In this document: one piece after another, positions 5,107 through 41,902 of the stretch
Layout: the number at the start of each line of letters is the position of its first letter
Position numbering within the stretch: the first letter of the stretch is position 1
Assembly (NCBI GenBank): GCA_027024225.1
Contig: JALVSR010000041.1
Span: forward strand, 1 to 43,681
Direction of reading: 5' to 3'
Length of the DNA stretch: 43,681 nt
Source of the DNA: Hyphomicrobiales bacterium
Lineage (GTDB): Bacteria; Pseudomonadota; Alphaproteobacteria; Rhizobiales; Aestuariivirgaceae
Position numbers and translations under genes: made by a program
The notes under the pieces: model-generated
The model's database searches: none
What the model was told of the DNA's origin: nothing
What the model saw: only the letters and a program-made list of their open reading frames with translations

Positions 5107-5182
5107 TCCCCGGTAGCTCAGTTGGTAGAGCAAGCGGCTGTTAACCGCTGGGTCGCTGGTTCGAGTCCGGCCCGGGGAGCCA
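5107..5182 (+). tRNA. tRNA-Asn (anticodon GUU)
   Basis: The 76-nt sequence folds as a standard cloverleaf. The acceptor arm is TCCCCGG/CCGGGGA (5107-5113 with 5172-5178), followed by discriminator G and an encoded CCA (5180-5182). The D arm carries AGCTCAGTTGGTAGAGC. The anticodon stem AGCGG/CCGCT encloses CTGTTAA with anticodon GTT at 5140-5142, and the T arm contains GGTTCGAGTCC. It reads asparagine codons. A T-rich stretch follows, and I see no integrase or duplicated attachment site beside it. Confidence 0.98.
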
Positions 5183-5604: not shown

Positions 5605-5886
5605 TCATTTCTTGCAGGGAGACTTGTCCTTTTTCTTGATGACGACGTTGTGCTCCATCGGCTTGGCCTTGCGCATGCGCTCCGGCGTCCAATATTTCTC
5701 CACTTCTTTTGGAGAAGTCTTCAGATGTTTGCCGCTTTCGCTGATGGCTCCCCTTTTTTCTTCTTCGCAAGCGCCCTTGTCATCCATGTCCTTGGGTGGG
5801 CGCTCCATCGCCAAGGCGGCAGAACATCCAATGGCAAGCAATAATGCCAGGACCATGGGCTTGAAGCGTGTAGCTTGATCATGCAT
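5605..5886 (-). CDS. Small exported protein with YWTPERMR motif, last gene of the T2SS minus-strand run
   Basis: This 93-residue protein starts at the ATG at 5886, behind a good AGGGAGG site. Residues 1-26 form a signal peptide with an Ala-Leu-Ala cleavage site before MERPP. The mature part (about 67 residues) is highly charged, has Cys near its middle and near its C-terminus, and ends KKKDKSPCKK. The only recognisable feature is YWTPERMRKAKP at residues 65-76. The same motif occurs in the N-terminal region of the trypsin-like protease encoded at 18652-19881, where it precedes the catalytic domain. There is no catalytic domain here. The gene lies 79 nt downstream of gspG on the same strand, so it may be co-expressed with the secretion system. 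A role as free-standing propeptide, inhibitor or chaperone of the protease is inference. Confidence 0.8.
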   Translation of the reverse strand: MHDQATRFKPMVLALLLAIGCSAALAMERPPKDMDDKGACEEEKRGAISESGKHLKTSPKEVEKYWTPERMRKAKPMEHNVVIKKKDKSPCKK

Positions 5887-5965: not shown

Positions 5966-6445
5966 TCACCAGCTGGTAATGTCCGCATCCTCGCCCGTTC
6001 CGCCGGGTTTGCCATCTCGGCCAAGGCTGAGGATATCGAATTTTCCGTGTTGGCCCGGATAACGATAGACATAGGGCCTGCCCCACGGGTCGATCAGGCC
6101 GCGTTCCGACTTCAGATACGGCCCTTGCCAGCCGGCAACACCCGGAGGCGGGGTGAAAAGCGCCTGCAACCCCGTTGTGGCGTCCGGGTATCTGCCGGTA
6201 TCCAGAAAATACAACTCCACCGCACTGACCAAGTTGTTGATCTGGGCCCGTGCCACCTGGCTGCGGGCCGTGCCGAGATATTTCAGCACCTGCGGCACCG
6301 CGAAGGTGGCGAACAACGCCAGAATGGCCAGCACCACCAGCATTTCCACCAGTGTCAGGCCGACGTCCCTTCCCGCCAGAACGTCCTTGTCACATCGGCC
6401 GGCCGATGGAGCGCGAGAAGAATTGTCGAGATTTCCAGAATGCAA
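5966..6445 (-). CDS. gspG: T2SS major pseudopilin GspG
   Basis: GspG polymerises into the periplasmic pseudopilus that drives substrates through the secretin. The prepilin signature is clear: cleavage after Gly29, then LTLVEMLVVLAIL with Glu at position +5 and a long hydrophobic helix. The body has the GspG pattern, including YFLDTGRYPDATTGLQAL, GPYLKS, DPWGRPYVYRYPG and the C-terminal FDILSLGRDGKPGGTGEDADI loop that binds calcium in the family. The leader is long because the only in-frame start found is a TTG at 6445 behind a weak AAGAAAGAG site, so the exact start is uncertain. It follows the prepilin peptidase gene (85 nt) and precedes the small exported protein. Confidence 0.93.
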   Translation of the reverse strand: MHSGNLDNSSRAPSAGRCDKDVLAGRDVGLTLVEMLVVLAILALFATFAVPQVLKYLGTARSQVARAQINNLVSAVELYFLDTGRYPDATTGLQALFTPPPGVAGWQGPYLKSERGLIDPWGRPYVYRYPGQHGKFDILSLGRDGKPGGTGEDADITSW

Positions 6446-6530: not shown

Positions 6531-7010
6531 TCACGCGCACGAAAAGGCCACCACCGCGCCAAGCGCCAACCACGGGCCAAACGGCAGGATTGTTTTTCGC
6601 GATGGTCGGGAGGCGGCCGTCCATTGCCGGACAATACTCCATGCGATTGCCGTCAGGGCGGCCACCAGCAGCATGATTCCGACACCTTGCGGCCCCAGCC
6701 AGAAACCGCAGGCCGTAACCATCTTCACATCTCCCAGGCCCAGGCCATGGCGCCCCCGGGCGCGGTGATAGGCCACGCGCACAAGACCGGTAATCGCCAG
6801 CCCCAGCATTGCGCCGGCGAAGGCCTGCTGCGGCGGAAGACCATGGCCGCTGAAGGAAAACAGGATGCCCGCAATGGCCAGGGAAGCATTCAATGCATCC
6901 GGAATGCGCTGATGACGCATGTCATGGATGGCGATCGCTCCCAGCAGGGTCAGCATCACCAGGCCCGGCAACAGGCTCGTCAAATTCAGTGGCATCGGGT
7001 TCTCGTCCAT
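6531..7010 (-). CDS. Minimal prepilin peptidase (A24 family), GspO/CpaA-like
   Basis: This is the membrane aspartyl protease that removes leader peptides from pseudopilins. The protein of about 159 residues is almost all membrane segments. It contains both catalytic Asp motifs: IAIHDMRHQRIPD near the N-terminus and GLGLGDVKM in the middle. Classical GspO/PilD is about 280 residues, with an N-terminal methyltransferase half and a zinc Cys cluster; both are absent, so this is the peptidase-only form. Start choices are the ATG at 7010 and the ATG at 6995, which has a GGACGAG upstream. It sits between gspC and gspG, which ties it to processing GspG, H, I, J and K. Confidence 0.88.
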   Translation of the reverse strand: MDENPMPLNLTSLLPGLVMLTLLGAIAIHDMRHQRIPDALNASLAIAGILFSFSGHGLPPQQAFAGAMLGLAITGLVRVAYHRARGRHGLGLGDVKMVTACGFWLGPQGVGIMLLVAALTAIAWSIVRQWTAASRPSRKTILPFGPWLALGAVVAFSCA

Positions 7011-7401
7011 GCGGCTTCGGGGGGCGTTTCTGGCCAGACTGGCGTTTTCGGAAGCATTCTTGCAAGAAGCATCGGCACTCATCCGCGAAAAAACGGCCGG
7101 AAGAATTTTCCGGGTCAAACCGGCGGGGGAAGGCGGGCGCACCCGCGCTCGGGGCAGGATCGAGAACTTCCAGCGATGCCGAATTGCGCAAGGGTTGGCC
7201 GGTGCAAGCCTCCCCCGCCTCGTCCAGTCCCTTGTTCTCGGCCATCGGGGGTGATGACGAGGAGCGGTGGGAGGGTCTTAGGGTATTTCGGCCTGACTTC
7301 ACCGGCGTTTCGTCTCCGGCGATCCATCACCCGGCCGATATCTCGAAATTCGGCGCAACTTCGGGCATCACTTGTTTCTTGCATGTTCCCGCCGTGCCGA
7401 T
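7011..7401. other. Gap between gspC and the prepilin peptidase gene
   Basis: About 390 nt inside the otherwise compact minus-strand T2SS run. Open frames exist on both strands, but none shows a family motif, hydrophobic segment or convincing ribosome site. It could carry a secondary promoter for the peptidase and gspG, or a decayed gene. Confidence 0.4.
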
Positions 7402-7899
7402 TCAGCGCTTGTAGAGATCGATGCGTTCGGTGCGGCCGTTTTTGCGAACCACCACGAAACCCGGCTCGATGCGATCAATGCGCCAGCCTGCGATGGTGTC
7501 TCCCTGATCGAACCACCGTGGCGCCCCTCCGGCCGCCCCCATGATGGCGCGGCGCTTGTTGCCATGCATCATGATGCCAAACAGCTTCAGCCTCGCCACA
7601 TCCCGGGCCTTTTCCTCCCTGTCCCCGTCTTGCTCCGCCGTGACGGAAACGGCTTCCGCCCGAGGCAACTTGCGGGAAGAAAAGAATATCGGCGCATTCA
7701 GAAGGTGGGTAAGACGCTCGAAGGAAGGCAGAGCGAGCTCCGGCAGGGATGGCGCGGCGGAGTTGGCGACGCTTGTGGCATTCGGCGAAACCATCGGCAA
7801 TGCGGGGGGATGCAACGCTTCCCGCACCCGTGGTGCCAGCGCCCACAAGGCCACCAGGCAGGCCATGATCAACAGCACCTGTATCGTGATCCGGATCAT
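7402..7899 (-). CDS. gspC: T2SS inner-membrane protein GspC (homology-region domain)
   Basis: GspC links the inner-membrane platform to the secretin GspD through its periplasmic homology-region domain. The 165-residue protein has one N-terminal membrane helix (IQVLLIMACLVALWAL), a linker and a C-terminal HR-like domain. That domain has the expected pattern: LKLFGIMMHGNKRRAIMG, WFDQGDTIAGWRIDRIEPGF, then VVVRKNGRTERIDLY. No PDZ or coiled-coil extension follows, so it is the short form. Its start overlaps the gspM stop as ATGA. Similar domains occur in PilP-like proteins, but the position next to gspM and gspL makes GspC the best name. Confidence 0.8.
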   Translation of the reverse strand: MIRITIQVLLIMACLVALWALAPRVREALHPPALPMVSPNATSVANSAAPSLPELALPSFERLTHLLNAPIFFSSRKLPRAEAVSVTAEQDGDREEKARDVARLKLFGIMMHGNKRRAIMGAAGGAPRWFDQGDTIAGWRIDRIEPGFVVVRKNGRTERIDLYKR

Positions 7900-8549
7900 T
7901 TCGGCGCCTCGCCACCTGGCTGATAGCCGTGAATGTTCGCCTCCACCAGCAGCTGCGCCCCGATTTTGCCGGCCACCAGCAGCCTGTTCTGCGCATCGCC
8001 AAACAGGCGCACGGTGGCCTTGTCGATGAACAGCAACGGAACGCCGGTTTCCACGGCGTGAAGAATGCCGAAGGCCTTTTCGACCGGCGCGCGAAAACGC
8101 ACCGCCAGCCCCAGACGAATGGCATCCTTTTCCGCTTTTGGCGGTAGGGGCCTGACCTCCATCATGGTGCCCCCATGCGTGGCGATGAGTTTGCCGATTT
8201 GTCCCTGCATGTCGGCGAGGATCAGGGAAGGATCTCCACTCGCCAACAGATCCGCCGCCGCCCGTCTGGACAATTCCTCCAGTTGCGCCAGGGCGCCGCC
8301 CTGGGCGCGGTGCAACACCGCCTTCAAGCGGCCCAGCCGCCTGGCCTTCAAGACGGCCTCCTGGCGCAATTCATCGACGAAGGTCTGCCACGGCCGAACG
8401 ATGCCGAACCATCCCACGGCGACAAGCGTGGCGAGCAACAGCCAGGCGGCCGCCACGTTGACAACCGCGCCGGCATGAGCCAGCCCCCCTTGCAGCGCTT
8501 GGCCCTGCAACCCATTGCCACGGAGCGATGTTTTGGCGCCTTTCGTCAT
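7896..8549 (-). CDS. gspM: T2SS assembly-platform protein GspM
   Basis: GspM is a bitopic inner-membrane protein that pairs with GspL in the T2SS platform. The 217 residues comprise a short cytoplasmic N-terminus, one membrane helix (about 30-50, VAAAWLLLATLVAVGWFGIV), a coiled-coil-like periplasmic stretch (FVDELRQEAVLKARRLGRLKAVL) and a ferredoxin-like C-terminal domain with FRAPVEKAFGILHAVETGVPLLFID, as in GspM subtype b. Both ends overlap neighbours by ATGA (gspL upstream, gspC downstream), so L-M-C are translationally coupled. The family is weakly conserved in sequence; topology and context carry the call. Confidence 0.82.
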   Translation of the reverse strand: MTKGAKTSLRGNGLQGQALQGGLAHAGAVVNVAAAWLLLATLVAVGWFGIVRPWQTFVDELRQEAVLKARRLGRLKAVLHRAQGGALAQLEELSRRAAADLLASGDPSLILADMQGQIGKLIATHGGTMMEVRPLPPKAEKDAIRLGLAVRFRAPVEKAFGILHAVETGVPLLFIDKATVRLFGDAQNRLLVAGKIGAQLLVEANIHGYQPGGEAPK

Positions 8550-9643
8550 TTTTTCGATGCCAGCTGGATGCGCAAGGCGAAATGTTCCTTGCCGCCGGCC
8601 TGATCCATCCGCACCGGCGAAATGAAGCTGACCTTGTCGAACATCGGCGAAGCCGACAAGGCCCGCACCAGGGCGGAAGCGGACGTGGCGTGGCCGGTCA
8701 GGCGCACTTCGTTCCCGTTCAGGGCGAGCCGTTCCACGTAGGCGGAGGATGGCAATATCCGCGAGAGTTCATCGATGATGGCGACCAGTATCGGGCGTGT
8801 GTTCTTGCGCGTGCGCAACAAGGTGGCGAGCTCCACATGGCGCTGTAACTGCGCGGATTTGCCCATGACCGCCCTTGCCTGCTGCATGCTGGAGGCGATC
8901 ATGGCGTCCAGTTGTTGGTTCGCCTTCCACAACCACCAGCCTTGCATGCCGGCCACGAACAGGGCCGTGATGATGACGATCGCGGCAAGGGCCATGAGCG
9001 CCCTGTTCAGCCATCCGCTCAGGCCCGCGGGCAACTTGCGTCTTTTCTCCGCAGGCAGCAGATCCAGCGGCAGCGCTTCGCCATCGGCGGTTTCCACCGT
9101 GACCGCGTGGATGGGAAAACGAAGGACGGCGAGCTCATCCAGCACGGGATCCACCAGCGCCCGCTTCACCAGGTACAGACGGGCGCGCACACGACGGCGA
9201 TCACCCGCAACGGGTTCGACGTGGCAGGCGGCGTAAACGCGGGAATCGTCCAGCAGACCAACCCGGTGCTGTTCCATCCGCAGGATTTCCCGCGCGCGAT
9301 GACGCGCCGAAGCGGGCAGCAGGTTCTCCAGGATCACGCAGTCCCTTTCGGCGACGCGCACCTCCAGCATGCGAAATGCCCGCAGCGGGCGCGGAATCCG
9401 CGCCAGCCGTACCGTCATTTCCGTCAGCGACGAGGCCAGCGGAACATCTCCCGCCCGCCGGCCATGCCACGGGCGCAGTTCGCAGCCTTCGCGGCGCACA
9501 AGCACGATCGCCGAGATGGGAGGGCGGGTCAGGGCGCTGCGCACGGACGGGGGCAGCACCCCTTGCAGCGCATCGCGCCACCACCTGAAAAACGCTTTCA
9601 ACCTGCCGGAAAAGGCCCGCCTTTTCGCGCCGGGGTGACGCAT
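8546..9643 (-). CDS. gspL: T2SS platform protein GspL (PilN-like C-terminal domain)
   Basis: GspL recruits the ATPase GspE through its cytoplasmic domain and pairs with GspM. The cytoplasmic part contains an actin-like remnant (ISAIVLVRREGCELRPW, VILENLLPASARHRAREIL, VYAACHVEPV). A membrane helix follows (ALMALAAIVIITALFVAG), then a periplasmic PilN/GspL domain with ILVAIIDELSRILPSSAYVERL and LTGHATSASALVRALSASPMF. I use the ATG at 9643 (365 residues). Upstream in-frame starts at 9739 (ATG) and 9781 (TTG) cannot be excluded, since no start has a strong ribosome site. It is the first gene of the minus-strand run and diverges from gspE. Confidence 0.84.
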   Translation of the reverse strand: MRHPGAKRRAFSGRLKAFFRWWRDALQGVLPPSVRSALTRPPISAIVLVRREGCELRPWHGRRAGDVPLASSLTEMTVRLARIPRPLRAFRMLEVRVAERDCVILENLLPASARHRAREILRMEQHRVGLLDDSRVYAACHVEPVAGDRRRVRARLYLVKRALVDPVLDELAVLRFPIHAVTVETADGEALPLDLLPAEKRRKLPAGLSGWLNRALMALAAIVIITALFVAGMQGWWLWKANQQLDAMIASSMQQARAVMGKSAQLQRHVELATLLRTRKNTRPILVAIIDELSRILPSSAYVERLALNGNEVRLTGHATSASALVRALSASPMFDKVSFISPVRMDQAGGKEHFALRIQLASKK

Positions 9644-9834
9644 GTCGCCAGTTGCGTGAAAAAAATCGGAAGAGGCTGCCCGCTCGTGAGGATGCCCATT
9701 GACTGCCGTCACCCACACACTCCTTGCACCCCGTGGCATCCGGGCGTCGTCCTGTATGGATTTTCCAATGTCAATGCTCAATAATACATGAGCCGCAATC
9801 GAGTTACAATGTGCTTTCCCGGAGGGCTGGTTTC

Positions 9835-11631
9835 GTGCCTCTCACATGGCGCCGCGCCGAAAGTGGAAAACCGACCGACAAGGCCAGTGCTGGCGGCGCG
9901 CCCCGGCCGGCCCTGACGGATGCGGAGGGCGCCGGCGATCGCAGGGGGGCTGCCTTGCGTGAGCCTGACGGCGATTTTCTGGATTTCCTGCACGATGCCG
10001 GCTTGCTGGACAAGGCGGCCGCGGGACGCGTGCGCAAGGTGGCGCAGGAAACCGGAGCCGCCATCGAAACGGTAATCCTCGAGCTGGGGCTGCTGCCGGC
10101 AGTCCAGCTGCGCGACAAGCTCGCCGAATTCCTGGGCCTGCCGGTGGTCGAAATGGCCGATTTTCCGCCTCGGCTGCTGCTCCCGGACCAGCTGCCGCAC
10201 GATTTTCTGCTGCGTCATCACATGGTGGTGCTGGACGCCGATGAACAAACGGTATGGCTGGCCGTCGCCAACCCCCACGCCCATAACGAGCTGCAGGCGG
10301 TGCGCTTCGCCACGGATCGCGAAGTGCGGGTGAAACTCGCGCTCCAAAGCGACATCGAGAACTGGTTGCGTCGTCATGTGCCCGCCCCGGATACGGCGGC
10401 GGAGCTGACGCCCGAGAAGGTCAGCGACAGGGACATCCAGCGGCTGCGCGATACCGCGTCGCAGGCGCCGGTGATCCGCTATGTCAACAGGCTGATCGCC
10501 CGCGCCATCGCCGAGCGCGCCTCGGATGTGCACCTGGAGCCGCAGGCCAACACCATGAGGGTGCGTTTTCGGCTCGACGGGCAATTGCACGAGGTCGAGC
10601 ACGTGCCCCCAGACCTGCAGGCCGGGGTGGTTTCGCGCATCAAGATCCTGGCTCGGCTGAACATCGCCGAGCGGCGGTTGCCCCAGGATGGACGCACCAA
10701 CTTCATTGTCGATGGTCGCAACATCGATCTGCGCGTGTCCACCATGCCGGTCATGCACGGAGAAAACATCGTGTTGCGCATTCTCGATGCCGGGCGGGTG
10801 GACCTGTCGTTGCCGGCGTTGGGGTTCGATGCGCACCAGGTGCGAATTTTCGAGCACATCCTGGAGCGGCCGAACGGCATGGTGCTGGTCACCGGGCCTA
10901 CCGGCAGCGGCAAGACGACGACGCTCTACGCCGCCCTGCGGCGGCTCAACACGCCGGAGCGCAAACTGTTCACGGTGGAGGATCCCATCGAGTACGAACT
11001 GCCGGGGATCAGCCAGATTCAGGTGGCCCCCGCGATCGGGCTGGATTTCGCCCGCGCCCTGCGCAGCATCCTGCGGCAGGACCCGGACATCATCATGGTG
11101 GGCGAGATGCGCGACCTGGAAACCGCCCGCATCGGGGTGCAGGCGGCATTGACCGGGCACCTGGTATTATCCACCTTGCATACCAATTCGGCCTGTGGCT
11201 CCGTGACGCGCCTGCTGGACATGGGTGTTAAGGACTACCTGCTGGCGTCCTCCCTGGTGGCGGTCATCGCACAGCGTCTGGTGCGTCGCCTGTGTCCGCG
11301 CTGCGCCACACCGGCGCCGGAGGTGGCCGAGCGCATTCGGGCCATGGGCTTCGATCTGGAAGGCGCCCTGGCGCCGGATGAAATCAGGCCGGGGGAGCCC
11401 GTCGGGTGTGAAGAATGCCATGGCACCGGCTATGCGGGCCGGATGGTCGTGGCCGAATTCCTCCTTGTCGACGATGCGGTGCGCGGCATGATCCACGCTG
11501 GCGCGGACGCGGCGGCCCTGGAGGAGGAGGCCCGGCGGCGCGGGATGCGCAGCCTGGCGGAAGACGGTATGATCAAGGTGCTGAAGGGCCACACCAGCCT
11601 GCGGGAAGTCTTGCGGGTGGCGCAGCTTTAG
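9835..11631 (+). CDS. gspE: T2SS assembly ATPase GspE
   Basis: GspE is the cytoplasmic hexameric ATPase that powers pseudopilus assembly. I choose the GTG at 9835, which follows a clean GGAGGG site, giving 598 residues. An N-terminal GspE/MshEN domain comes first. The ATPase core has Walker A GPTGSGKTTT (about 354-363), an Asp box, Walker B with DPDIIMVGEMRD (about 416-427) and the His box LSTLHTNSA. The four-Cys zinc element of T2SS ATPases is present (LCPRC at 486-490 and GCEEC at 524-528). An ATG further upstream would add residues without family similarity. It leads the plus-strand run E-F-H-I-J and diverges from gspL. Confidence 0.96.
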   Translation: MPLTWRRAESGKPTDKASAGGAPRPALTDAEGAGDRRGAALREPDGDFLDFLHDAGLLDKAAAGRVRKVAQETGAAIETVILELGLLPAVQLRDKLAEFLGLPVVEMADFPPRLLLPDQLPHDFLLRHHMVVLDADEQTVWLAVANPHAHNELQAVRFATDREVRVKLALQSDIENWLRRHVPAPDTAAELTPEKVSDRDIQRLRDTASQAPVIRYVNRLIARAIAERASDVHLEPQANTMRVRFRLDGQLHEVEHVPPDLQAGVVSRIKILARLNIAERRLPQDGRTNFIVDGRNIDLRVSTMPVMHGENIVLRILDAGRVDLSLPALGFDAHQVRIFEHILERPNGMVLVTGPTGSGKTTTLYAALRRLNTPERKLFTVEDPIEYELPGISQIQVAPAIGLDFARALRSILRQDPDIIMVGEMRDLETARIGVQAALTGHLVLSTLHTNSACGSVTRLLDMGVKDYLLASSLVAVIAQRLVRRLCPRCATPAPEVAERIRAMGFDLEGALAPDEIRPGEPVGCEECHGTGYAGRMVVAEFLLVDDAVRGMIHAGADAAALEEEARRRGMRSLAEDGMIKVLKGHTSLREVLRVAQL

Positions 11632-11684
11632 CGTTTCCGCCGGCCACGGACGCAAGACGCGGGGAATCGAAGCGCGAGGCGTGA

Positions 11685-12893
11685 ATGCCAAGGTTCCGGT
11701 ACAAGGCATATGACGAGCATGGCCGCACGGTAAGCGGCGAGATCGAGGCCTTGAGCGAACATGCCGCCCTGCAGACCTTGCACGCGCAGGGACTGCTGGT
11801 TTTCGAAACCTCCGCCACCGACGCCGGCGGCCACAAGGCCGCCACGCCCTGGCGCCGGCTCGGCTTGCCGGAATGGGAGGAGTTCACGCGCGAGATGGCC
11901 ACCTATTTGCAGGCCGGCCTGCCCGTGGACGATGGCTTGCGGCTGATCGGCCACGAAACCCGCACCGCACGGGTGCGCAAGCTCGCCATGGCGGCGCACC
12001 AGCGGCTGGTCGCTGGGCAGTCGCTGGCGGCCTCCCTGCGCGGGGCGATGGCGGACACGCCCCCCATACTGCTGGCCGCCATCGAGGCGGCGGAACGAAG
12101 TGGGCGGCTGACGGAGGCGTTCAACGACCTGCACGAACTCCTGTCCTACCAGGTGGAGCTGCGGCAGCGGGTCGGCGCGGCGTTGCTCTATCCGGCGATG
12201 CTGGCCATCAGCGCGATGGTGGTCATGGTCATCATCGCCACGGCCCTGGTGCCCGCGCTGATGCCCTTGTTCACGCAATCGGGGGCACGGCCTCCGGCGA
12301 TGTTGACCTTCATCGCGCACACGACCGATTTCCTGCGCGCCAACGGGGCCAATCTGGCGCTGCTGGCGGCCACGGCCGGCGTGTTGATCTCGCTGCTGCT
12401 TTCGACCGGGCGCGGGAAGATGTTGCGCGACCGGCTGATCCTCGGGTTGCCGTTTTTCGGGCACATCGGCAGGCAACGGGGCGTTGCCCTGTATGCCCAC
12501 ACCCTGGGCACTCTGCTCGCCAATGGCGTTTCGCTGGACGAGGCGATGAAAATCGCCGCGGCGGTGGTGGACAATGCCGTCCTGCGCGCCGAGATGACGC
12601 AGGCGGCGAAGGAGGTGGGCGAGGGCGCGCGGCTGTCCGATGCGCTGGCCCGGGCGCCGCACATGCCGGGTCTCGCCCTGCGATTCGTTCGGGTCGGTGA
12701 GGACACGGGCGATCTCGTCTCCGCCTTGCGCAATCTGGCCAGGGTCGTGGAGCGTGGAGCGCGTCGGCGGCTGGACACCGTCACCACCCTGATCGGCCCG
12801 GTGCTGACGATCGCCATCGGCCTGCTGATCGGCGGGATCATCCTGACCGTCATGCAGGCGATGCTCAGTATCAACGATCTGGCATTGCGATGA
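11685..12893 (+). CDS. gspF: T2SS inner-membrane platform protein GspF
   Basis: GspF is the polytopic membrane protein of the T2SS platform that contacts GspE and the pseudopilus base. The 402 residues show the two repeated T2SSF domains, the first around EFTREMATYLQAGLPVDDGLRLI and the second around YAHTLGTLLANGVSLDEAMKIA. Each ends in a membrane segment, and the C-terminal helix region has the family wording LIGPVLTIAIGLLIGGIILTVMQAM. The N-terminus PRFRYKAYDEHGRTVSGEIEA is the usual start. It lies 53 nt after gspE and 3 nt before gspH. Confidence 0.95.
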   Translation: MPRFRYKAYDEHGRTVSGEIEALSEHAALQTLHAQGLLVFETSATDAGGHKAATPWRRLGLPEWEEFTREMATYLQAGLPVDDGLRLIGHETRTARVRKLAMAAHQRLVAGQSLAASLRGAMADTPPILLAAIEAAERSGRLTEAFNDLHELLSYQVELRQRVGAALLYPAMLAISAMVVMVIIATALVPALMPLFTQSGARPPAMLTFIAHTTDFLRANGANLALLAATAGVLISLLLSTGRGKMLRDRLILGLPFFGHIGRQRGVALYAHTLGTLLANGVSLDEAMKIAAAVVDNAVLRAEMTQAAKEVGEGARLSDALARAPHMPGLALRFVRVGEDTGDLVSALRNLARVVERGARRRLDTVTTLIGPVLTIAIGLLIGGIILTVMQAMLSINDLALR

Positions 12894-12896
12894 CCG

Positions 12897-13379
12897 ATGC
12901 GCAAGCGGCTTGACAGGCATGCGGCACTGCAGCGCGCCGACGCCGGCCTGACGTTGATGGAGGTCATGGTGGCGCTGATGCTGGTCGCTTCCGGCCTGTT
13001 GCTGGCGCTGCAATGGCTTCCCATGGGACCGGGGCGTGCGGATGTGCGGCAAGTCGGCTACGAGATGGCGCTGGGCCTGCGCCAGGCGCGCACGAAGGCC
13101 ACGACGCAAAGCCGCGAAGTCGGCTTCATTTTCGACGCTGCCAGCCGCAGTTGGCGCGTGGGCGAGCGCGGCGCGCCTCATCCGCTGCCCAAGGGCATAC
13201 AGGTGCGCATGCAAGCGGCGGACCAGCTGAATTTGCGTCCCCGCGAGGGGCGGATTGTCTTTTTCCCCGATGCCAGCTCCACCGGCGGCGTGATCATCGT
13301 CACGGGACGAAACCGCTCGATTCGCATCGAGGTGGACTGGTTGACGGGCAAAATCTCGATCATCGAGGAAGAGCGATGA
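12897..13379 (+). CDS. gspH: T2SS minor pseudopilin GspH
   Basis: GspH is a minor pseudopilin of the pseudopilus. The 160-residue protein has a 17-residue leader ending in Gly, then LTLMEVMVALMLVASGLLL with Glu at +5 and the standard hydrophobic helix. The rest fits the GspH/FimT fold: LRQARTKATTQSREVGFIFDAASRSWRVG, then GRIVFFPDASSTGGVIIV. That last wording (FxPDGSSTGG-like) is characteristic of the family. Its stop overlaps the gspI start. The start is the first ATG after gspF. Confidence 0.9.
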   Translation: MRKRLDRHAALQRADAGLTLMEVMVALMLVASGLLLALQWLPMGPGRADVRQVGYEMALGLRQARTKATTQSREVGFIFDAASRSWRVGERGAPHPLPKGIQVRMQAADQLNLRPREGRIVFFPDASSTGGVIIVTGRNRSIRIEVDWLTGKISIIEEER

Positions 13380-13774
13380 GACGGAGCGACCGGGAAGACG
13401 GTTTCGTGATGCTCGAAGCGCTGGTGGCTTTCGCCGTGCTGAGTCTCGTCCTGGTCCTTTTCTACGAAGCCCTGGCGGGAAATTATCGCACAGCGGCGCT
13501 GACGCGGGAACGCGACCTGGCGCTGGCGGAAGCGCGGTCGCACTTGCAGGGGCTGGGCCTGGCCATGCCCATTCGGGCCGGAGGCAGCAGCGGCGTCTAT
13601 CATTCCGGAGCGTTCTGGAAGATGGAAGCCGCGCCCTTGCCCCCGCCGGAGCGTGGCGATGGCATGCCGCCCCTGCCGCGGTATCTGGTGACGCTGGAGG
13701 TGAGAAACCGGGAAGGCAGGCAGCTCACCCGATTGCAGACGGTTGTCATCGATCGGCGGATGCGGGACGAATGA
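13376..13774 (+). CDS. gspI: T2SS minor pseudopilin GspI
   Basis: GspI forms the tip complex of the pseudopilus with GspJ and GspK. The 132-residue protein has a short leader (MRRSDREDG) cleaved before FVMLEALVAFAVLSLVLV, with Glu at +5. The segment ALTRERDLALAEARSHLQ is the usual helix that follows in GspI. The start overlaps the gspH stop, and the stop overlaps the gspJ start (both ATGA), so H-I-J are translationally coupled. Its assignment rests on the prepilin motif, size and position between H and J. Confidence 0.87.
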   Translation: MRRSDREDGFVMLEALVAFAVLSLVLVLFYEALAGNYRTAALTRERDLALAEARSHLQGLGLAMPIRAGGSSGVYHSGAFWKMEAAPLPPPERGDGMPPLPRYLVTLEVRNREGRQLTRLQTVVIDRRMRDE

Positions 13775-14421
13775 CCGAGCTTGACGACACTCACGTGCCT
13801 GTGGAGGCGCATGACGCCGAGGCGGGCCTTGCCCTTGTGGAAGTGCTGGTGGCGTTGGCGCTGCTGGCGCTGATCTCGCTTTTGCTGGTGGAAACCCTGC
13901 GCGGCGGAGGACGGGCGATACGGGCCATGGAGCGCGACTTTGCGCAACTGGAGCTGCGCCAGGTGCGCGAATATCTGGAAGAAGCGCTCGTCAGCGCGCT
14001 TCCGCACGCCTTCTTTTCGGAAGATACCTCTGCCACCTTGCCGCTTCATGGCGGGCGGCAATCACTGGCGTTCGTCACCAATCATACCGTGGCGGGCCAA
14101 TATGCCGGCATTTACGTGACCCGGCTGACATTGCGCCCGGGGAAGGACGGATTGTCCGACCTGTGGCTGGATCAGCACCTCTACCATCGTTATTCCACCA
14201 CCGATTATCGGGTCTCGCCCAGGGTCAGGCTGTTGCGCAACGTGGCGCGGCTGCACTTCCGGTATTTCGGCGCGACGCAAGAAGGCTCGCGGGCGCGATG
14301 GCATGACACTTGGCGTCATCCGCACCGCTTGCCGGATGCGGTTGCTCTCGTGGTCGAGTTTGGCAAGAATGATCCGCGATATTGGCCGGTATTGATCGCA
14401 AGCCCCCGGACGTCGCCATGA
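13771..14421 (+). CDS. gspJ: T2SS minor pseudopilin GspJ
   Basis: GspJ is the largest of the H-I-J minor pseudopilins and joins the tip complex with GspI and GspK. The 216 residues begin with a 19-residue leader ending AEAG, then LALVEVLVALALLALISLLLV with Glu at +5. The C-terminal half has the pattern VRLLRNVARLHFRYFGA..EGSRARWHDTW..PHRLPDAVALVVEF, which matches GspJ. Canonical operons continue with gspK, but here the next gene is a sulfotransferase-methyltransferase fusion that overlaps the gspJ stop by ATGA. gspK is found 19 kb away. Confidence 0.9.
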   Translation: MTELDDTHVPVEAHDAEAGLALVEVLVALALLALISLLLVETLRGGGRAIRAMERDFAQLELRQVREYLEEALVSALPHAFFSEDTSATLPLHGGRQSLAFVTNHTVAGQYAGIYVTRLTLRPGKDGLSDLWLDQHLYHRYSTTDYRVSPRVRLLRNVARLHFRYFGATQEGSRARWHDTWRHPHRLPDAVALVVEFGKNDPRYWPVLIASPRTSP

Positions 14422-15956
14422 TTCTTTCGCTTTTCTCCCGCCGTTCCCGGCAGGCCGAAACAACACCGCAGCCGTTTGCCGGCCCCGGGTTTCCGCTCGA
14501 TGCGGAACCCCTGGCGCCGCGCGTGGCGATCGGTGGTGTGGGCGGCAGCGGAACGCGCGTGCTCATCACCATTCTGCAGATGGCCGGGTTGCACATCGGT
14601 GACGACCTCAACGAGGCCAATGACAATCTCTGGTTCACCCTTTTGTTCAAGGAACCGGGAATTCTGGATCTGGATGACGAGACGTTCGATTTGCGGTTGC
14701 GATTGTTCATTGCCGCCAATACCGGAGGGATGCCGCTCGACACGGCCACGGCGGAATACCTCGAATCCCTGTGCCATATTCCACGCCCCGACGCCGCCCG
14801 TCCACAACATACGCGCGAATGGCTGCAGGCCCGTGCCGCCAGCCTCAAGAAAGCGGCCGGCGGGCCGCCACGCGGTGCCGTGTGGGGCTGGAAGGAGCCC
14901 AACACCCATGTCTGCCTGGACAGGCTGATGGTGCGCTTGCCGGGGCTGAAATACATCCATCTGGCCCGCAACGGACTGGACATGGCCTATTCGGCCAACC
15001 GAGCGCAACTGGCTTTCTGGGGGGCGCGCTTTCTGGGGCGGCAAGTGTCGGACACGCCGCGTGACGCGCTGGCCTATTGGTGCGCCGTGCACAAGCGTAT
15101 TTTCAGGCTGGCGGGCCGCATGGATGATCGTTTTCTGTTCGTTCGTTTCGAGGATCTCTGCGCCGCGCCAAAGAGAGAAATCGCCCGCATTCTTGCTTTC
15201 GTCGGCCTTGAGGTTGGCGAGGAAAGGCTGGCGGAAATGGCCGCCATGGTGCGTCCTCCGGCCAGTATCGGACGCTGGCGCGAGCATGGCGCCGGAGAAT
15301 TCGATGCGGCGGATGTGGAGTATGTCCGTCAATTGGGCTTTTCGGTCGAGGAAGAGGATGAATCCGGCACAACGCCGCGCTCGCTGGAAACGCTGCTGGA
15401 TGGCGTGGAAGGGTGGCTGCCTCTGCCGGAGGCCCGATACCTGAGCGAACGGGCGCGCGAATGTGGCGGCGATGTGGTGGAGATTGGCAGCTATCGGGGG
15501 CGTTCCACCATCGCGCTGGCCCATGGGCTGGCTCTCGCAGGCGTAGAGGGTGCACAGGTTTACGCCATCGATCCGCATGCTCCCGCCCAGGGCGTGCACG
15601 GTGGGGCGTTTGGCCCCCGCGATCGCAAGGCGTTTTTTCGCAACCTGCTGGCGGCGGATCTGGTGGAACGGGTGGCCTTGATCAACCTGCCCAGCCAGGC
15701 GGCGGTGCGGGCCTGGGACAGGGAGATCGCGCTGTTGTTCATCGACGGCGATCACCGTTATGAGCAAGTCCGGCACGATGCCTTTGCATGGACACCATTC
15801 CTGCGCGATGGCGGGCTGGCCATTTTCGATGATGCTGACGATCCGCAAAGCGGTCCGGGCAGGGTGTTGGAAGAGCTCGCGAGAACGGGAAATTTCCGTC
15901 TGGCGGGCGGCGCGGGCAGGCTTCGGGCGCTGGTGAAGACAGGAGGGGCCGGATGA
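14418..15956 (+). CDS. Sulfotransferase-methyltransferase fusion protein
   Basis: This 512-residue protein joins two transferase domains. The N-terminal domain (about 36-300) looks like a PAPS-dependent sulfotransferase: a P-loop-like VAIGGVGGSGTRVLITIL, WGWKEPNTHVCLDRL, a 3'-phosphate-site-like YIHLARNGLDMAYSANR, and VRFEDLCAAPKREIARILAFVGL. The C-terminal domain (about 335-512) is a class I SAM-dependent methyltransferase of the Methyltransf_24 type, with VVEIGSYRGRST, YAIDPHA, and LLFIDGDHRYEQVRHDAFAW followed by GLAIFDDADD. Together they could sulfate and methylate one glycan, probably at the inner membrane or in the cytoplasm. The start ATG at 14418 overlaps the gspJ stop. The acceptor is unknown. 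Confidence 0.85.
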   Translation: MILSLFSRRSRQAETTPQPFAGPGFPLDAEPLAPRVAIGGVGGSGTRVLITILQMAGLHIGDDLNEANDNLWFTLLFKEPGILDLDDETFDLRLRLFIAANTGGMPLDTATAEYLESLCHIPRPDAARPQHTREWLQARAASLKKAAGGPPRGAVWGWKEPNTHVCLDRLMVRLPGLKYIHLARNGLDMAYSANRAQLAFWGARFLGRQVSDTPRDALAYWCAVHKRIFRLAGRMDDRFLFVRFEDLCAAPKREIARILAFVGLEVGEERLAEMAAMVRPPASIGRWREHGAGEFDAADVEYVRQLGFSVEEEDESGTTPRSLETLLDGVEGWLPLPEARYLSERARECGGDVVEIGSYRGRSTIALAHGLALAGVEGAQVYAIDPHAPAQGVHGGAFGPRDRKAFFRNLLAADLVERVALINLPSQAAVRAWDREIALLFIDGDHRYEQVRHDAFAWTPFLRDGGLAIFDDADDPQSGPGRVLEELARTGNFRLAGGAGRLRALVKTGGAG

Positions 15957-18651: not shown

Positions 18652-19881
18652 TCAGTTGCCACCGTTTGACAGGCACGCATTGAAGACATCGACGACATCC
18701 CTGGGATCATTGTCGGAATTCGTGAACTGCGGGCTGCCCATTTCGTTAACGTACCCCCTCAGCCGATGGCTGTTCACGCCATTGAGAAACGGCATGTTGG
18801 AGGCGCTGGCTCCGGCGGGCGGATCGGTCAGGCCGGTGGAGTCGAGACGATCGTAAGCGGCCGACCTGTGTTCCCAGTTAATGAACCACGGACCACCGCT
18901 GGAACCACCGGTCATGTCATTGCCCATGTATTTCGACACGACGCCGCCATCGTTGCTGGACAGGTCCCGCTCATACCATTCGACGCCAGCCACGTGAATG
19001 ATGTGATAGCCGGGGAATGGCGCGCCTGCCGGATAGCCCAGCGCCATCACCAGGTACCTGGTCGCCCAGTTCCAGGTCATGCCGGCCCAGCCCGTGATGT
19101 TGCCGATCTTGGTGTTGTGCACCGTGCCCGTGGGCGAGAGGACGACACAGGCGTAATCGCGGTCGATCCTCTTATACATATGCCAGTCCGTTGGCGTGTA
19201 GGCGGTTCCCGTCCATGACCAGCAGCCACGCTGAGGGTGCGGCGCACCACTGCCGCTGCCCTTGTAATAGGACGGGCAGAACAGGAGGTTCGTGGACCAA
19301 TTGCCTTGGCCGTCGGAGACGCAATGTCCGGCCGTGAAGATCGTGGATTTCTGGACCACCGTCGCCGAGCAAACATAGCTGTTTCCGTTCTGTTTGAAGA
19401 ACAGTTTGCCGATCACCGAGCGCGGATATGTCAGGTAATTGCCGAAATGCGTCCAGCGCTGAAATGGCCCATAGTTGGCATAGTCCGTGGAGCTGCTGGG
19501 CGGAGTGCCCGGCGGAACGGAATATTGCGGTTGGACTTTGTTGAGCTTGATGATGGTGCCGGGCTTTGGCTGTGGCAAGCCACTTTGCGGATCCCACCCC
19601 GGCATGACCCCCGGCTCTCCAAGTGGCGGGCGTTCCTCGGCGTTCATCGGCGCCACTTTCGCCGGGTCAACCGAAATGACGTCCAGCGGCTTCGCCTGAC
19701 GCATCCGCTCGGGCGTCCAGTACGACAGGGTTTCCGACACGACAGTGGCAATGTTCTTGCCTTTCATCGATCCCGAAATGCCTTCGTTCGCCTGCTCTTG
19801 CCCCACCGCAGGCGCGGCGGCCAGCAGGCCCAAAAGCGCCACACCAAGACCGGCGCGCTGAAGCATGTCAAAGCGTTTCAT
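18652..19881 (-). CDS. Secreted trypsin-like serine protease with YWTPERMR propeptide motif
   Basis: This is a 409-residue chymotrypsin-fold (S1-type) endopeptidase with the complete triad: TAGHC (His186), DYACV (Asp242) and GGSSGGPW (Ser328). A signal peptide (1-27, ending APAVG) and a propeptide-like region of about 110 residues precede the catalytic domain. That region carries YWTPERMRQAKP at residues 54-65. The catalytic domain begins near GKLFF...YVCSATVV. Cys pairs are likely (171/187 around the His loop). The start has a GGGAG site 8 nt upstream. With a full T2SS encoded on both sides, type II export is plausible, but the sequence does not show it. The shared motif with the exported protein at 5605-5886 suggests a functional pair. 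Confidence 0.92.
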   Translation of the reverse strand: MKRFDMLQRAGLGVALLGLLAAAPAVGQEQANEGISGSMKGKNIATVVSETLSYWTPERMRQAKPLDVISVDPAKVAPMNAEERPPLGEPGVMPGWDPQSGLPQPKPGTIIKLNKVQPQYSVPPGTPPSSSTDYANYGPFQRWTHFGNYLTYPRSVIGKLFFKQNGNSYVCSATVVQKSTIFTAGHCVSDGQGNWSTNLLFCPSYYKGSGSGAPHPQRGCWSWTGTAYTPTDWHMYKRIDRDYACVVLSPTGTVHNTKIGNITGWAGMTWNWATRYLVMALGYPAGAPFPGYHIIHVAGVEWYERDLSSNDGGVVSKYMGNDMTGGSSGGPWFINWEHRSAAYDRLDSTGLTDPPAGASASNMPFLNGVNSHRLRGYVNEMGSPQFTNSDNDPRDVVDVFNACLSNGGN

Positions 19882-33328: not shown

Positions 33329-33644
33329 CGGCCATTCGGCCGAAAACCTCCCCTCGTTCGCCAGTGAGGCATGTGCCGATCGTGCGATAGGGAAGTGTTT
33401 GCAGGGATCCCCGCCTTTTTGAGCCACCCGGATCAACGGCTTGCATTCATGTTTCCTCCACAGGGCGGCGTCGCCTTTGCCGATGACATTCCGGGCGGGA
33501 ATGGGATAGTATCGGGGGCGAAGGCATGGCATCTTCCCCTTTGTGCGTCGTTCGGAGAGATGAAAGGCCTCGCTGAATTCCGGGAGCTTGTTGAACACCT
33601 GCCAGCCGCGATGCGCCCCCAGGCAGAATTCAGGTGATATGACC
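33329..33644. other. Intergenic region without a recognised gene
   Basis: These 316 nt join cysC to gspK. A small CGGCC/GGCCG hairpin lies just after cysC but lacks a T run. Open frames on both strands carry no family motif. It marks the right border between the glycan cluster and the returning T2SS genes, and may hold the gspK promoter. Confidence 0.4.
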
Positions 33645-34604
33645 ATGAGCGGCTATTCCGGCCCAGAACGCGATGGGGGGTTCGTTTTGGTCAGTGTGAT
33701 GTGGGCGTTGGTGCTTCTGGCGCTGATTGCCATCGTCACCACGACGGCCTTTCGCGGCAGCCATCGCGCTCTTTCCCGCGCCGATCAGCTGGCGGGCGCC
33801 AAGGTGTTGGTGGATGGACTGGCCCAGTTGCTGGCCGCGGATATCGCGGTCACCCGGCTGTTTCGTTTCAACGGCATGGCGATGCGTTCCGGCTGGCCCC
33901 TTGCCTGCCGCCATGAAAACGCCACCATCGTGCTCACCGCCACCAATTCCGTCGGCCTGGTGGACCTCAACCTTGCCGATCGAGCGACGCTGAAGACCGT
34001 TCTTCTGGCCGCTGGCGTGAAGACCGACAAGGTGGAGCAACTGCTGGACGCCATCATCGACTTTCGCGATCCCGACAACCTGACGCGGGAGGGGCTGCCG
34101 GAGGATCGCATCTATCGTGACAGGGGTGTGCTGCATCTGCCGAAGAACTCGCCTTACGAGGATGTCGGCGAGCTGGATCAGGTGGCGTTCATGAACTCCC
34201 GGATACTGGCGCGCATTCGCGCATTCCTCACCGTGTTTTCCCACGAAAGGAAGGTCGAAACGGAAGTTTCCCCGCCCCGGCTGGCCGCCATCCTGTCGGG
34301 CCGCACGATCAGCGACCGGCAAATCGCTTCGCGCGCCGCCGAGGCCAGCCGGAAATCGCGCGCTGTGGCCTCGTCCGCATACCGTCTGGAGACGAGATAT
34401 CGCATGTTCGAAATTCGCGTGATGGCGATGAGGGACAACGGCGTTCATGCCATGCGTGTGGCGGGAGTGGAAATAATGCCGGGCACCAGGGATGGGTATC
34501 GATTGGTCTACTGGAACCGAGCCACCCCCTTTTCACATGAACGGCTGTTGGCCCGTTTTCCCGATCTTCCTTCATGTTTCTTGCCTTCGCGGTCTTCCGA
34601 ATGA
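33645..34604 (+). CDS. gspK: T2SS minor pseudopilin GspK
   Basis: GspK caps the pseudopilus tip together with GspI and GspJ. I choose the ATG at 33645, since an AGGTGA site lies 7 nt upstream and would be too close to the ATG at 33639; this gives 319 residues. The leader ends in GG before FVLVSVMWALVLLALIAIV. Glu is absent at +5, as is usual for GspK. The body has the helix-hairpin-helix-like GspK pattern: VGLVDLNLADRATLKTVLLAAGV, LLDAIIDFRDPDNL and SPYEDVGELDQVAFM. It is separated by about 19 kb from gspJ, its usual neighbour, and leads into gspD. Confidence 0.92.
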   Translation: MSGYSGPERDGGFVLVSVMWALVLLALIAIVTTTAFRGSHRALSRADQLAGAKVLVDGLAQLLAADIAVTRLFRFNGMAMRSGWPLACRHENATIVLTATNSVGLVDLNLADRATLKTVLLAAGVKTDKVEQLLDAIIDFRDPDNLTREGLPEDRIYRDRGVLHLPKNSPYEDVGELDQVAFMNSRILARIRAFLTVFSHERKVETEVSPPRLAAILSGRTISDRQIASRAAEASRKSRAVASSAYRLETRYRMFEIRVMAMRDNGVHAMRVAGVEIMPGTRDGYRLVYWNRATPFSHERLLARFPDLPSCFLPSRSSE

Positions 34605-34956: not shown

Positions 34957-37125
34957 GTGTGTGTCATGAAGTTCAATTTCTGGATGCATGTATTCGGCAT
35001 GCTCGCGTTGGGGGGCGCGGTTGCCGCCTGCACCACCGCCGGCGCAAGGCTTTCCAACAATCCGCTTGACACCATTTTCGAGCCCACCGAGGAACAGGTT
35101 TCGGGTGGAACGCGCCCCCGGAAAGCGAGAAATGTGTGGCGGCATGAAGACCCCGCAGGCATGGAAGTGGGCGAGGAAGAGGTCTATGGCACCGGGCAAT
35201 TCCTGCGGGCCTCGCCCAAGGGAAAATTGAATCGGGTCCAGGAAACCCGCGATGGCGTAACCATAAACCTTCGCAATGTTCCCATAGCCGAAGCCGCCAA
35301 GAGCATTTTTGGCGACATTCTGGGGTTCAATTACATCATATCCCCAGGTGTGGAAGGCACGGTGACCATCGAAACCACACGCCCCTTGCCCAAGCAACGC
35401 CTGGCGCGCATCTTTGCGAACGCGTTGCGATCCCGGGGATATTCTGTCACCTACGAAGATGGCGTCTATGTGATCGGCAAGGCCGACGGCGGCAAGGGAC
35501 CCGTGCTGGTGCGCGGCGAGCGGGGGCCGGTTGTTGGCGTGCGCACCTGGCTGGTGCCTTTGCGGCATGTGAGCGCGGAGCAGATGGCCGCCCTGTTGCG
35601 CCCGTTCGTCAAGAAGGGCTCCATTTTCGTGGCCGACAAGCAGCGTGACATTCTGGTCGTTTCGGGCACGACCGCGGAGCTTTCCGGCATAGACAAGATG
35701 ATCCGCACTTTCGATGTGGACAGCATGCGGGGCATGTCCTTCGGTCTTTATCCCGTTCGCTCGAAAAGCCCGCTGGCGGTGGTCAAGGAGCTGGAGACGG
35801 TGTTTGGCTCCGCGGGAACGTTGGTCCCCGACAAGATCCGCTTCGTGCCCAATCAGCGCATGGGCGCCATTCTCGTCATCGCCAGGCAGCCATCCCTGTT
35901 GCGCCGGGCGAAAAACTGGATCAAGAGGCTGGACCGCTTCGTTCAGGCCAACGAGGAGAGGGTTTTCATCTACAAGGCTGAAAACCGCTCGCCCAAGGAA
36001 CTGGCGGAACTCCTGGAAAAGGTCCTGAAGAGCACCGGGAAGGCCCCGCCTCCCTCCGGCTCCAAGCCCATCGCTCCCCGCTTCGCCAATGCCGGGGTGA
36101 CTGTCGGCACCGATGTGGAGGCGGGACAGGAAGAAGGCGGCAAGGGCGATGCCGAACCGCCCATGACCGGCCCCGTCACCACCACGGAACGGGATGCCCT
36201 GTCCAAGGCGGTGATCGTGGCCGACAAGATGAACAAGGCGCTGCTCATCCGCACCACTCCGCGCAATTACCGGCGGATCCTGAACATCCTGTACAAGATC
36301 GACGTTCCCGTGCCGCAGGTGATGCTCGAGGCGGTGATCGCCGAGGTCACCCTGAACGACGAGTTGCGTTTTGGTGTGAAATGGTTCCTGCAAAGCGGAA
36401 AGCACAATTTCATCCTGTCCGATCTCGTCAGCGGCGCCGTGAAATCGACCTTCCCCGGCTTTTCCTATTCCTTCGCCAGCTCCGATATCCGCTTCGTTCT
36501 CGATGCGCTTTCGGACATTACCGACGTGAATGTCATTTCAGCGCCTTCGCTGATGGTGATGGACAACGAGCCGGCGGTGTTGCAAATCGGCGATCAGGTG
36601 CCCATCGCCACCAAGGCGTCGCAAAAGCCCGACGATCCCGACGCGCCCGTGGTGACCACCATCGAGATGAAGGATACCGGCGTGATCTTCAGGGTGACGC
36701 CCCAGGTGAACGAGAATGGACAGGTATTTCTGCAGATAGACCAGGAAGTTTCCTCGGCCCAGAAAACCACCACCTCCGGCATTGATTCGCCCACCATCTC
36801 GAAGCGCCGGCTGAGCACCAAGGTGCTAGTCAATGATGGAGCCGTGGTGGCTCTGGGAGGGCTTATCCAGCAGCGGGATGCCATCACTAGGAAGCAAATT
36901 CCCGTGTTGGGCAATATCCCGGTGATTGGCACCGTGTTCCGCAGCAAGACCAGCAGCATCCATCGCACCGAGTTGATCATTTTCCTCCGGCCCAGGGTCA
37001 TTCGCAACAAGCGTGACGCCCAGGCCGTGGCGCAGGAGTTCCGCCGTCGGCTGCATGTCCGCCCCCTGCAACCGGTTCACGAAGGCGACATTTATGTCCG
37101 CGATGTGAGGCGGATCTTCAAATGA
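34957..37125 (+). CDS. gspD: T2SS outer-membrane secretin GspD
   Basis: GspD forms the outer-membrane channel through which folded substrates leave. The 722-residue protein has a lipoprotein-type signal (lipobox VAAC, Cys25), a linker, then the N0 domain (VTINLRNVPIAEAAKSIFGDILGFNYIISPGVEG). N1-N3 repeats follow, including QRDILVVSGT and ADKMNKALLIRTTPRNYRRI. The secretin core has VISAPSLMVMDNEPAVLQIGDQVPI, DTGVIFRVTPQVNENGQVFL and VALGGLIQ, and ends with VLGNIPVIGTVFRSKTSSIHRTELIIFLRPRVI. A lipidated GspD suggests it may reach the outer membrane without a separate GspS pilotin. The GTG at 34957 has a GGAGG site 6 nt away; the ATG at 34966 is an alternative. Confidence 0.95.
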   Translation: MCVMKFNFWMHVFGMLALGGAVAACTTAGARLSNNPLDTIFEPTEEQVSGGTRPRKARNVWRHEDPAGMEVGEEEVYGTGQFLRASPKGKLNRVQETRDGVTINLRNVPIAEAAKSIFGDILGFNYIISPGVEGTVTIETTRPLPKQRLARIFANALRSRGYSVTYEDGVYVIGKADGGKGPVLVRGERGPVVGVRTWLVPLRHVSAEQMAALLRPFVKKGSIFVADKQRDILVVSGTTAELSGIDKMIRTFDVDSMRGMSFGLYPVRSKSPLAVVKELETVFGSAGTLVPDKIRFVPNQRMGAILVIARQPSLLRRAKNWIKRLDRFVQANEERVFIYKAENRSPKELAELLEKVLKSTGKAPPPSGSKPIAPRFANAGVTVGTDVEAGQEEGGKGDAEPPMTGPVTTTERDALSKAVIVADKMNKALLIRTTPRNYRRILNILYKIDVPVPQVMLEAVIAEVTLNDELRFGVKWFLQSGKHNFILSDLVSGAVKSTFPGFSYSFASSDIRFVLDALSDITDVNVISAPSLMVMDNEPAVLQIGDQVPIATKASQKPDDPDAPVVTTIEMKDTGVIFRVTPQVNENGQVFLQIDQEVSSAQKTTTSGIDSPTISKRRLSTKVLVNDGAVVALGGLIQQRDAITRKQIPVLGNIPVIGTVFRSKTSSIHRTELIIFLRPRVIRNKRDAQAVAQEFRRRLHVRPLQPVHEGDIYVRDVRRIFK

Positions 37126-37456
37126 ACCCGGCTCCCCGCGCCACGAGGCGGTGGCCTGCGGCTGCGGCTTTCTCGCGAAGAACGGTCAAGCCCGTAAAGT
37201 TCTTGCCCGCGGGATGCCATTGATGAGCAATTCACATGGATGAAAGCGCCTTGGATGACATGATGAGCGGGCCGCAGCTGTCGCCGCGCCACGGGGCGGT
37301 CTTGGTCGCCCCCCGAAAAGATGGATGAAGAGCGCCCTGTAAAAAAAGGGGGGGAGGGGGGACTGTCTTGAATAAATCGTGCGACATCATTTCATATCAT
37401 TGAAATCACGATAATTTCTCTTAGTATCTGGATGGCATGACTCTTGAGGGTCAAAA

Positions 37457-38977: not shown

Positions 38978-39007
38978 GGCGAAATCTCCCTCGATAATCC
39001 GTTTCCA

Positions 39008-39625: not shown

Positions 39626-39823
39626 TTTTTTCCTCCTCTTCCTTTGTCCGATCGATCCCGAATGCGGCTGCCGAACCGTTCTCCCTCGAAGTCCATCAAA
39701 CAAATGCGCCCGGCAATATTCACTCTCTCATCCGCTCGAGAACCCGCTCGAAAGACGAAGGGCGACGTCCACCTTGTCGGTGGGCGCCGCCCCGTGATTT
39801 CGCGTTGCAGCCGCTTGCAACAA

Positions 39824-41119: not shown

Positions 41120-41149
41120 GGTCATCAATCTCCCTCGGATTTCTGTCCG

Positions 41150-41767: not shown

Positions 41768-41902
41768 TTGTCTCCTCCTCTTCTGGTTGTTGCGTGGTCC
41801 CCTCACAGTCGGGCCCACCACATTTTCCGGTTCCCCCTCTCATGGTGGCCGGAATTCCCGAGGCTCCGCGGGCTGTTTCGCGGCCCGCGGAGAAACTTCA
41901 AT

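Follow-up and report, generated by a model that had tools for sequence, protein, structure and literature searches.

A probably exported small protein encoded behind gspG shares a pro-segment motif with an S1 protease and is a candidate for action in trans

Why should a 93-residue exported-looking protein, encoded 79 nt behind gspG on the same strand, share a twelve-residue motif with a protease encoded elsewhere on the same contig? We pursued this question in a window of 43,681 nt, by which we mean the whole stretch of DNA that was analysed. The small gene, P0001, occupies positions 5605..5886 on the minus strand (ORF and translation), and its motif, YWTPERMRKAKP, covers residues 65-76 (5659..5694, minus). 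The protease precursor, P0002 (409 aa; 18652..19881, minus), bears the corresponding motif, YWTPERMRQAKP, at residues 54-65 (19687..19722, minus), ahead of its catalytic domain. Both sites were placed from the ORF translations and the codon-pattern sites. Eleven of the twelve positions are identical, which gives the shared form YWTPERMR[KQ]AKP. The initial annotation had pointed out this likeness, the placement of the motif before the catalytic domain of P0002, and the position of the small gene, itself devoid of a catalytic domain, 79 nt after gspG; all of these observations hold. It offered two explanations: the small protein may be a propeptide with its own gene, which folds, inhibits or escorts the protease, or the motif may be a signal recognised by the secretion machinery. 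On the evidence given below, we assign a probability of about 0.5 to the reading that P0001 is a stand-alone pro-segment module of the S1 protease group, acting in trans on P0002.

P0001 starts with a hydrophobic, signal-like stretch recognised by eye, and it is from this feature alone that we judge the protein to be probably exported. A ribosome-site-like AGGGAGG lies just 5' of its ATG, two cysteines follow the signal-like part, and the plus-strand readings of the P0001 and P0002 stretches are both interrupted by stops. Searches of Pfam and NCBIfam with P0001 at E values up to 1 returned no match. The predicted model has a mean pLDDT of 61 and is mostly of low confidence or unfolded. Its best-scored part surrounds the motif, where two blocks of ten residues (61-80) have means of 79 and 81, and a helix at residues 68-73 falls within the motif. 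P0002 matches PF00089 above the cut-off and PF13365 below it. Its catalytic domain, residues 153-343 (18853..19425, minus), was delimited by alignment to PDB 3wy8 and contains the His and Ser signatures TAGHC and GGSSGG; this region aligns to PDB 3wy8 and 3cp7 with E=2.6e-25 and 1.8e-20. By alignment and signatures, P0002 is a member of the S1 (trypsin-fold) proteases of the 3wy8/3cp7 (AL20) group. The predicted model of P0002, with a pLDDT of 30, gives no docking site for the motif.

When the 2.2 Mb genome was searched with E values up to 10, P0001 matched only itself and P0002 (E=1.3e-5), and P0002 matched only itself and P0001 (E=1.2e-4). The likeness of the two proteins is thus more than chance. 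Beyond this genome the motif is rare, as judged from exact patterns applied to samples in which many genomes are incomplete MAGs. Among the 385 genomes of the class sample, one matched the exact codon pattern for YWTx[ED]RMxxA, namely the window's own, with one site in P0001 and one in P0002; the reversed-pattern control was found in none. In the phylum sample, 2 of 398 genomes matched (the own genome and G1018), and the reversed control likewise matched 2. In G1018 the site falls close to the C-terminus of a 419-aa reductase-like ORF; we took it as a chance match and not as a motif gene. A looser pattern was found in 4 of the 297 genomes of the order sample (the own genome, G050, G055 and G215). 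The matches in G055 and G215 were rejected, as they fall within DXP reductoisomerase (by Pfam in G055, the same stretch by eye in G215), and weak P0001 matches in G057, G037, G025, G017, G043 and G050:C10 (E from 6.8e-4 to 0.085) were discarded as lacking the motif by regular expression. Among phages only 3 records were returned, at E=8, and among viral contigs none. In the literature searched, we found no paper on the motif in any of several spellings.

Relatives of P0002 place the motif within the precursor. In L025, a relative from Arthrobacter, residues 103-321 match the whole 3wy8 chain and the motif lies at residues 44-53. Because the 3wy8 chain aligns from residue 103 onward, the motif falls outside the crystallised enzyme. 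That the crystallised chain starts past the motif may reflect natural removal of the preceding segment, or it may instead reflect the construct. Since it matches the whole 3wy8 chain, L025 is by this alignment a protease despite having no Pfam match. Twelve plasmid records were read, comprising 6 of the 31 with P0001 matches and 6 of the 30 with P0002 matches, and nine of the twelve stretches (all except L027, L028 and L031) hold an ORF with the motif by regular expression. These ORFs come from Streptomyces, Nonomuraea, Arthrobacter, Clavibacter and Xylella; a Nocardioides protease also bears the motif. Eight of the nine plasmid ORFs contain the His and Ser signatures of the trypsin fold together. 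In the ninth, L029, only the Ser signature is present, the motif has Leu for Met and Pfam gives no match; tblastn aligned this ORF to P0002. Pfam, applied to eight of the nine, recognised PF00089 above the cut-off in five and below it in one (Xylella), and gave no match for two (L025 and L029).

A scan of genome contigs for YWTxERMxxAKPM gave nine loci; it demanded AKPM after the motif, so other stand-alone genes were missed there. The motif was located in a protease at L032, L033, L035, L040 and L037 (the last cut by the contig end), with a stand-alone gene in addition at L033, and in stand-alone genes only at L034, L039 (both Bauldia) and L038. Pfam misses the proteases at L032, L033, L035 and L040, which were recognised through alignment to P0002 together with the signatures. 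In the proteases the motif lies tens of residues or more before the catalytic domain, and by these alignments it is part of the pro-segment of this S1 protease group. A profile built from nine protease pro-segments scored P0001 at 46.7 bits and one built from nine stand-alones scored it at 39.7 bits; in leave-one-out tests the stand-alones and the pro-segments overlapped. Judged by these profiles, stand-alones and protease pro-segments are one and the same module, and the stand-alones may have arisen more than once. We do not claim that P0001 is a recent copy of P0002 or that the stand-alones form one family, as the profiles do not decide these points. The motif was also seen outside proteases and small stand-alone genes: L036 1781-2866, from a Patescibacteria MAG, encodes an exported protein of 362 aa with YWTPERMRNAKPM mid-chain, a sub-threshold DNA-binding (HU-like) match near the start and no protease match.

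In total, ten stand-alone genes were found in eight genomes, and eight of the ten are clustered on the same strand with a protease of P0002's group. Seven of these clustered genes belong to the five Bauldia-genus genomes, all of which have them, and one belongs to L033, a deltaproteobacterial MAG contig of 3,192 bases that encodes a protease and stand-alone pair. The remaining two are P0001 itself, 12.8 kb from P0002, and a gene of an Acidimicrobiales MAG with no protease of P0002's group in the surrounding 16 kb that were read. Within the family of G050, the motif occurs in 5 of 28 genomes, all of one genus (Bauldia, of which five genomes were sampled). G731 and G733, which show identical places on a same-number contig, were counted once. 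In each Bauldia genome, small exported proteins bearing the canonical motif, one or two in number, are encoded 3' of the protease and on the same strand. The stand-alone is directly next after the protease in 4 of 5 genomes, and in G734 a pseudoprotease lies between the two. From the stop of the upstream protease or pseudoprotease to the first stand-alone the gaps are 65-371 nt. The ten stand-alones had no match in Pfam, and a profile of the ten had none in the PDB. The G734 pseudoprotease (L068 3602-4582) has TTASC for TAAHC, in which the catalytic His is replaced, and AGISGAA for GGSSGGA, and still has a form of the motif, EWTAERM.

The proposal of a propeptide encoded apart from its protease is strengthened by the location of the motif in the pro-segment and by the clustering of eight of the ten stand-alones with a protease. 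Clustering, together with the predicted lack of fold in P0001, would also be compatible with a stand-alone that serves the neighbouring protease as a substrate, or is a peptide product released by it, the motif being what the protease recognises. We consider this quite unlikely, given that the module is found within the protease's own precursor in all five protease loci of the contig scan, an arrangement that suits a pro-segment better.

The Bauldia genes allowed selection to be estimated. The proteases' own motif is altered to W[ST]PxxMERA in all five Bauldia genomes, and the stand-alones retain YWTx[ED]RM. Five pairs of stand-alones, three of which are not independent (they involve the same three genes), gave dN values of 0.22-0.41 with dS about 1 or above, up to saturation. 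An 18-codon block containing the motif had dN 0.13-0.17, against 0.25-0.51 for the rest of the gene, and was lower in every pair (5/5). In the protease pairs, the altered cis motif was better conserved than the rest in one of three. With the caution that numbers are low and dS approaches saturation, these estimates indicate purifying selection on the Bauldia stand-alones, with the strongest constraint at the motif. This bears on the idea that duplication and truncation of a protease gene left the stand-alone as a neutral remnant. A pseudoprotease without the catalytic His, such as that in the G734 cluster, and the overlap of stand-alone and pro-segment profiles are what such an origin would leave behind. 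The purifying selection in Bauldia with the motif block slowest (P0001 has no close relative for such a comparison), and the presence of intact, exported stand-alone ORFs in 5/5 Bauldia-genus genomes, make a neutral remnant improbable.

In the window, the position of P0001 suggests a different partner, namely the T2SS. The gene gspG (5966-6445, minus; PF08334 E=1.6e-37, T2SSG above cut-off) lies beside a prepilin peptidase of the type IV leader peptidase kind (6531-7142, minus; Peptidase_A24 above cut-off), a gspC-like gene (7402-7899, minus; T2SSC below cut-off, 21.3 of 27 bits), gspM (7896-8549, minus; T2SSM_b above cut-off) and a gspL-like gene (8546-9781, minus; assigned by its position, with a PilN match only). 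On the plus strand, gspE, gspF, gspH, an ORF in the gspI position and gspJ occupy 9724..14421 (T2SSE, T2SSF, GspH and T2SSJ above cut-off; the ORF in the gspI position had no Pfam match), and gspK (33588-34604) and the secretin gene gspD (34957-37125) follow on the same strand, both above the Pfam cut-off. We sought GspG (PF08334) under 14 genome handles, of which G731 is apparently G733 again. Of the eight genomes with stand-alones, the window's own is the one that encodes GspG; the other seven gave no match, some of these being incomplete MAGs and G050 being 100% complete. Among genomes with a motif protease and no stand-alone, GspG was clear in G727 and G729 and weak in G725.

We consider it very improbable that the motif is a T2SS recognition signal and P0001 a T2SS-related protein. 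Such a reading would draw on the 79-nt spacing behind gspG, on the presence of the T2SS, P0001 and P0002 on one contig, with gspG, P0001 and P0002 all undetected in ten same-genus genomes, and on the GspG matches in G727, G729 and G725. It is opposed by the seven of eight stand-alone genomes without a GspG match and by the motif proteases of monoderm actinobacteria, which to our knowledge have no T2SS. The secretion-signal proposal of the initial annotation is not supported by these observations, and its description of a free-standing motif protein linked with a gsp operon applies, among the eight genomes, to the window alone. Because the stand-alones cluster with proteases and GspG was detected in one of eight of their genomes, the motif is more likely to be linked to the protease than to the T2SS.

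Comparison within the window's genus puts the shared contig in context. Of the 11 genomes of the genus, all encode PurC as found on the window contig, and one, the window's own, has gspG; no P0001, P0002 or gspG was found in the other ten. Of 60 genomes in the wider family, 7 more gave P0002 matches; these were weaker and began at residue 99 or later, the motif region being absent. DNA similarity to the same-genus genome G004 extends from purC to just past tRNA-Asn (5107..5182, plus) and ends at window position 5201, and the T2SS, P0001 and P0002 all lie beyond this break. As judged from these comparisons, the three are together on a variable stretch, and their joint gain here, or joint loss elsewhere, may fairly be inferred. 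If they were gained or lost jointly, their three absences depend on one another and give no sign of a functional link. A contaminant contig is disfavoured: no second purC was found in the own genome, the product of the one here is 79-94% identical to ten same-genus copies, and the DNA similarity with G004 from purC to tRNA-Asn also speaks against contamination. We do not claim an island inserted at tRNA-Asn, as no second copy of the final 14-25 bases of the tRNA was found in the window.

In the reading we favour, P0001 would be exported on its own, and the short YWTxERM helix of P0001 would sit where P0002's own pro-segment does. P0002 occupied in this way would be held latent, helped to fold, or kept inactive until outside the cell. 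Both the binding of P0001 to P0002 and the effect of that binding we infer. Export of P0002 by the T2SS is plausible here and would fit the operon position. Several findings weigh against action in trans. P0001 is modelled as mostly unfolded, the genes for P0001 and P0002 are 12,765 nt apart and thus not adjacent, the Acidimicrobiales stand-alone has no protease of this group within the 16 kb read, and the L036 motif protein has no protease match. P0002 and the L033 protease moreover keep the full cis motif, so a trans copy is not needed there as a replacement.

Some of these findings would sit well with the motif being a handle for a third partner, such as a processing enzyme, a surface anchor or a quality-control factor, for which the stand-alone competes or is a second client. 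The motif is short, is helical in an otherwise low-confidence P0001 model and is set tens of residues or more before the catalytic domain, and it occurs both in a Patescibacteria protein without a protease match and in a stand-alone without a protease of this group nearby. We nevertheless find a third partner doubtful, as the protease is the only common neighbour seen in Bauldia and L033, and direct contact explains the clustering with proteases more simply. Extending the trans-acting reading beyond the window, we suggest tentatively, and with less confidence than for P0001 itself, that the short, helical pro-segment motif of a widespread S1 protease group has split off several times as an exported gene of its own, a linear-motif propeptide in trans. 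In Bauldia the function would look as if moved from cis to trans, and the window would hold such a pair on a variable stretch with a complete-looking T2SS.

Among known systems, the closest likeness is to stand-alone propeptide-like proteins of subtilases. Plasmodium SUB1-ProM is reported to be propeptide-like, to have a gene separate from that of the enzyme at a locus adjacent to protease genes, and to be a potent inhibitor (PMC6993865). P0001 resembles SUB1-ProM in being a propeptide-like protein separate from the enzyme; SUB1-ProM, however, belongs with the subtilisin family and a folded propeptide domain, whereas P0001 goes with an S1 protease, is mostly unfolded in the prediction and offers a short motif, and the case made here is sequence-based. 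A folded propeptide domain of subtilisin type was not found in P0001 or the stand-alones by Pfam, model or PDB profile. Because no such domain is predicted or matched, P0001 is, on this evidence, not a member of the subtilase propeptide families. By analogy it most likely works as their stand-alone members do: it has homology to a pro-segment, lacks a catalytic domain and appears to be exported, from a signal-like start seen by eye. The lipase-specific foldases (Lif/LipH) offer a second comparison, since they serve T2SS-exported lipases (PMC3352829, PMC13381987). Lif serves lipases and in the LipH case is membrane-anchored, whereas P0001 is a 93-aa protein without a Pfam match, and no Lif domain was detected in it with Pfam and NCBIfam at E values up to 1. 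Within the 3wy8/3cp7 (AL20) group itself, the catalytic region of P0002 aligns and the Arthrobacter match to 3wy8 has the same motif up front. We know of no stand-alone partner for proteases of this group, and in the literature searched we found nothing on their pro-segments. If the trans-acting reading is true, pro-segment function can reside in a short linear motif of a separate protein, and a Bauldia protease with its free-standing pro-segment would be a ready genetic system for pro-segment function. The motif would also be dissociated from the T2SS, to which its position in the window misleadingly points.

Other features of the window were recorded in passing. An intergenic stretch of 92 nt at 37359-37450 is 75% identical to a contig end of G008; we did not use this match as evidence of an empty site in G008, as it may stem from a dispersed repeat. 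Position 37450 is closely followed by several inverted repeats. At 14382-15953, a single ORF fuses sulfotransferase-like and methyltransferase-like parts. Two successive, similar flavoproteins resembling flavocytochrome c sulfide dehydrogenase, one of them checked with Pfam, are encoded at 37670-41821, and by eye a cytochrome-like ORF lies ahead of each.
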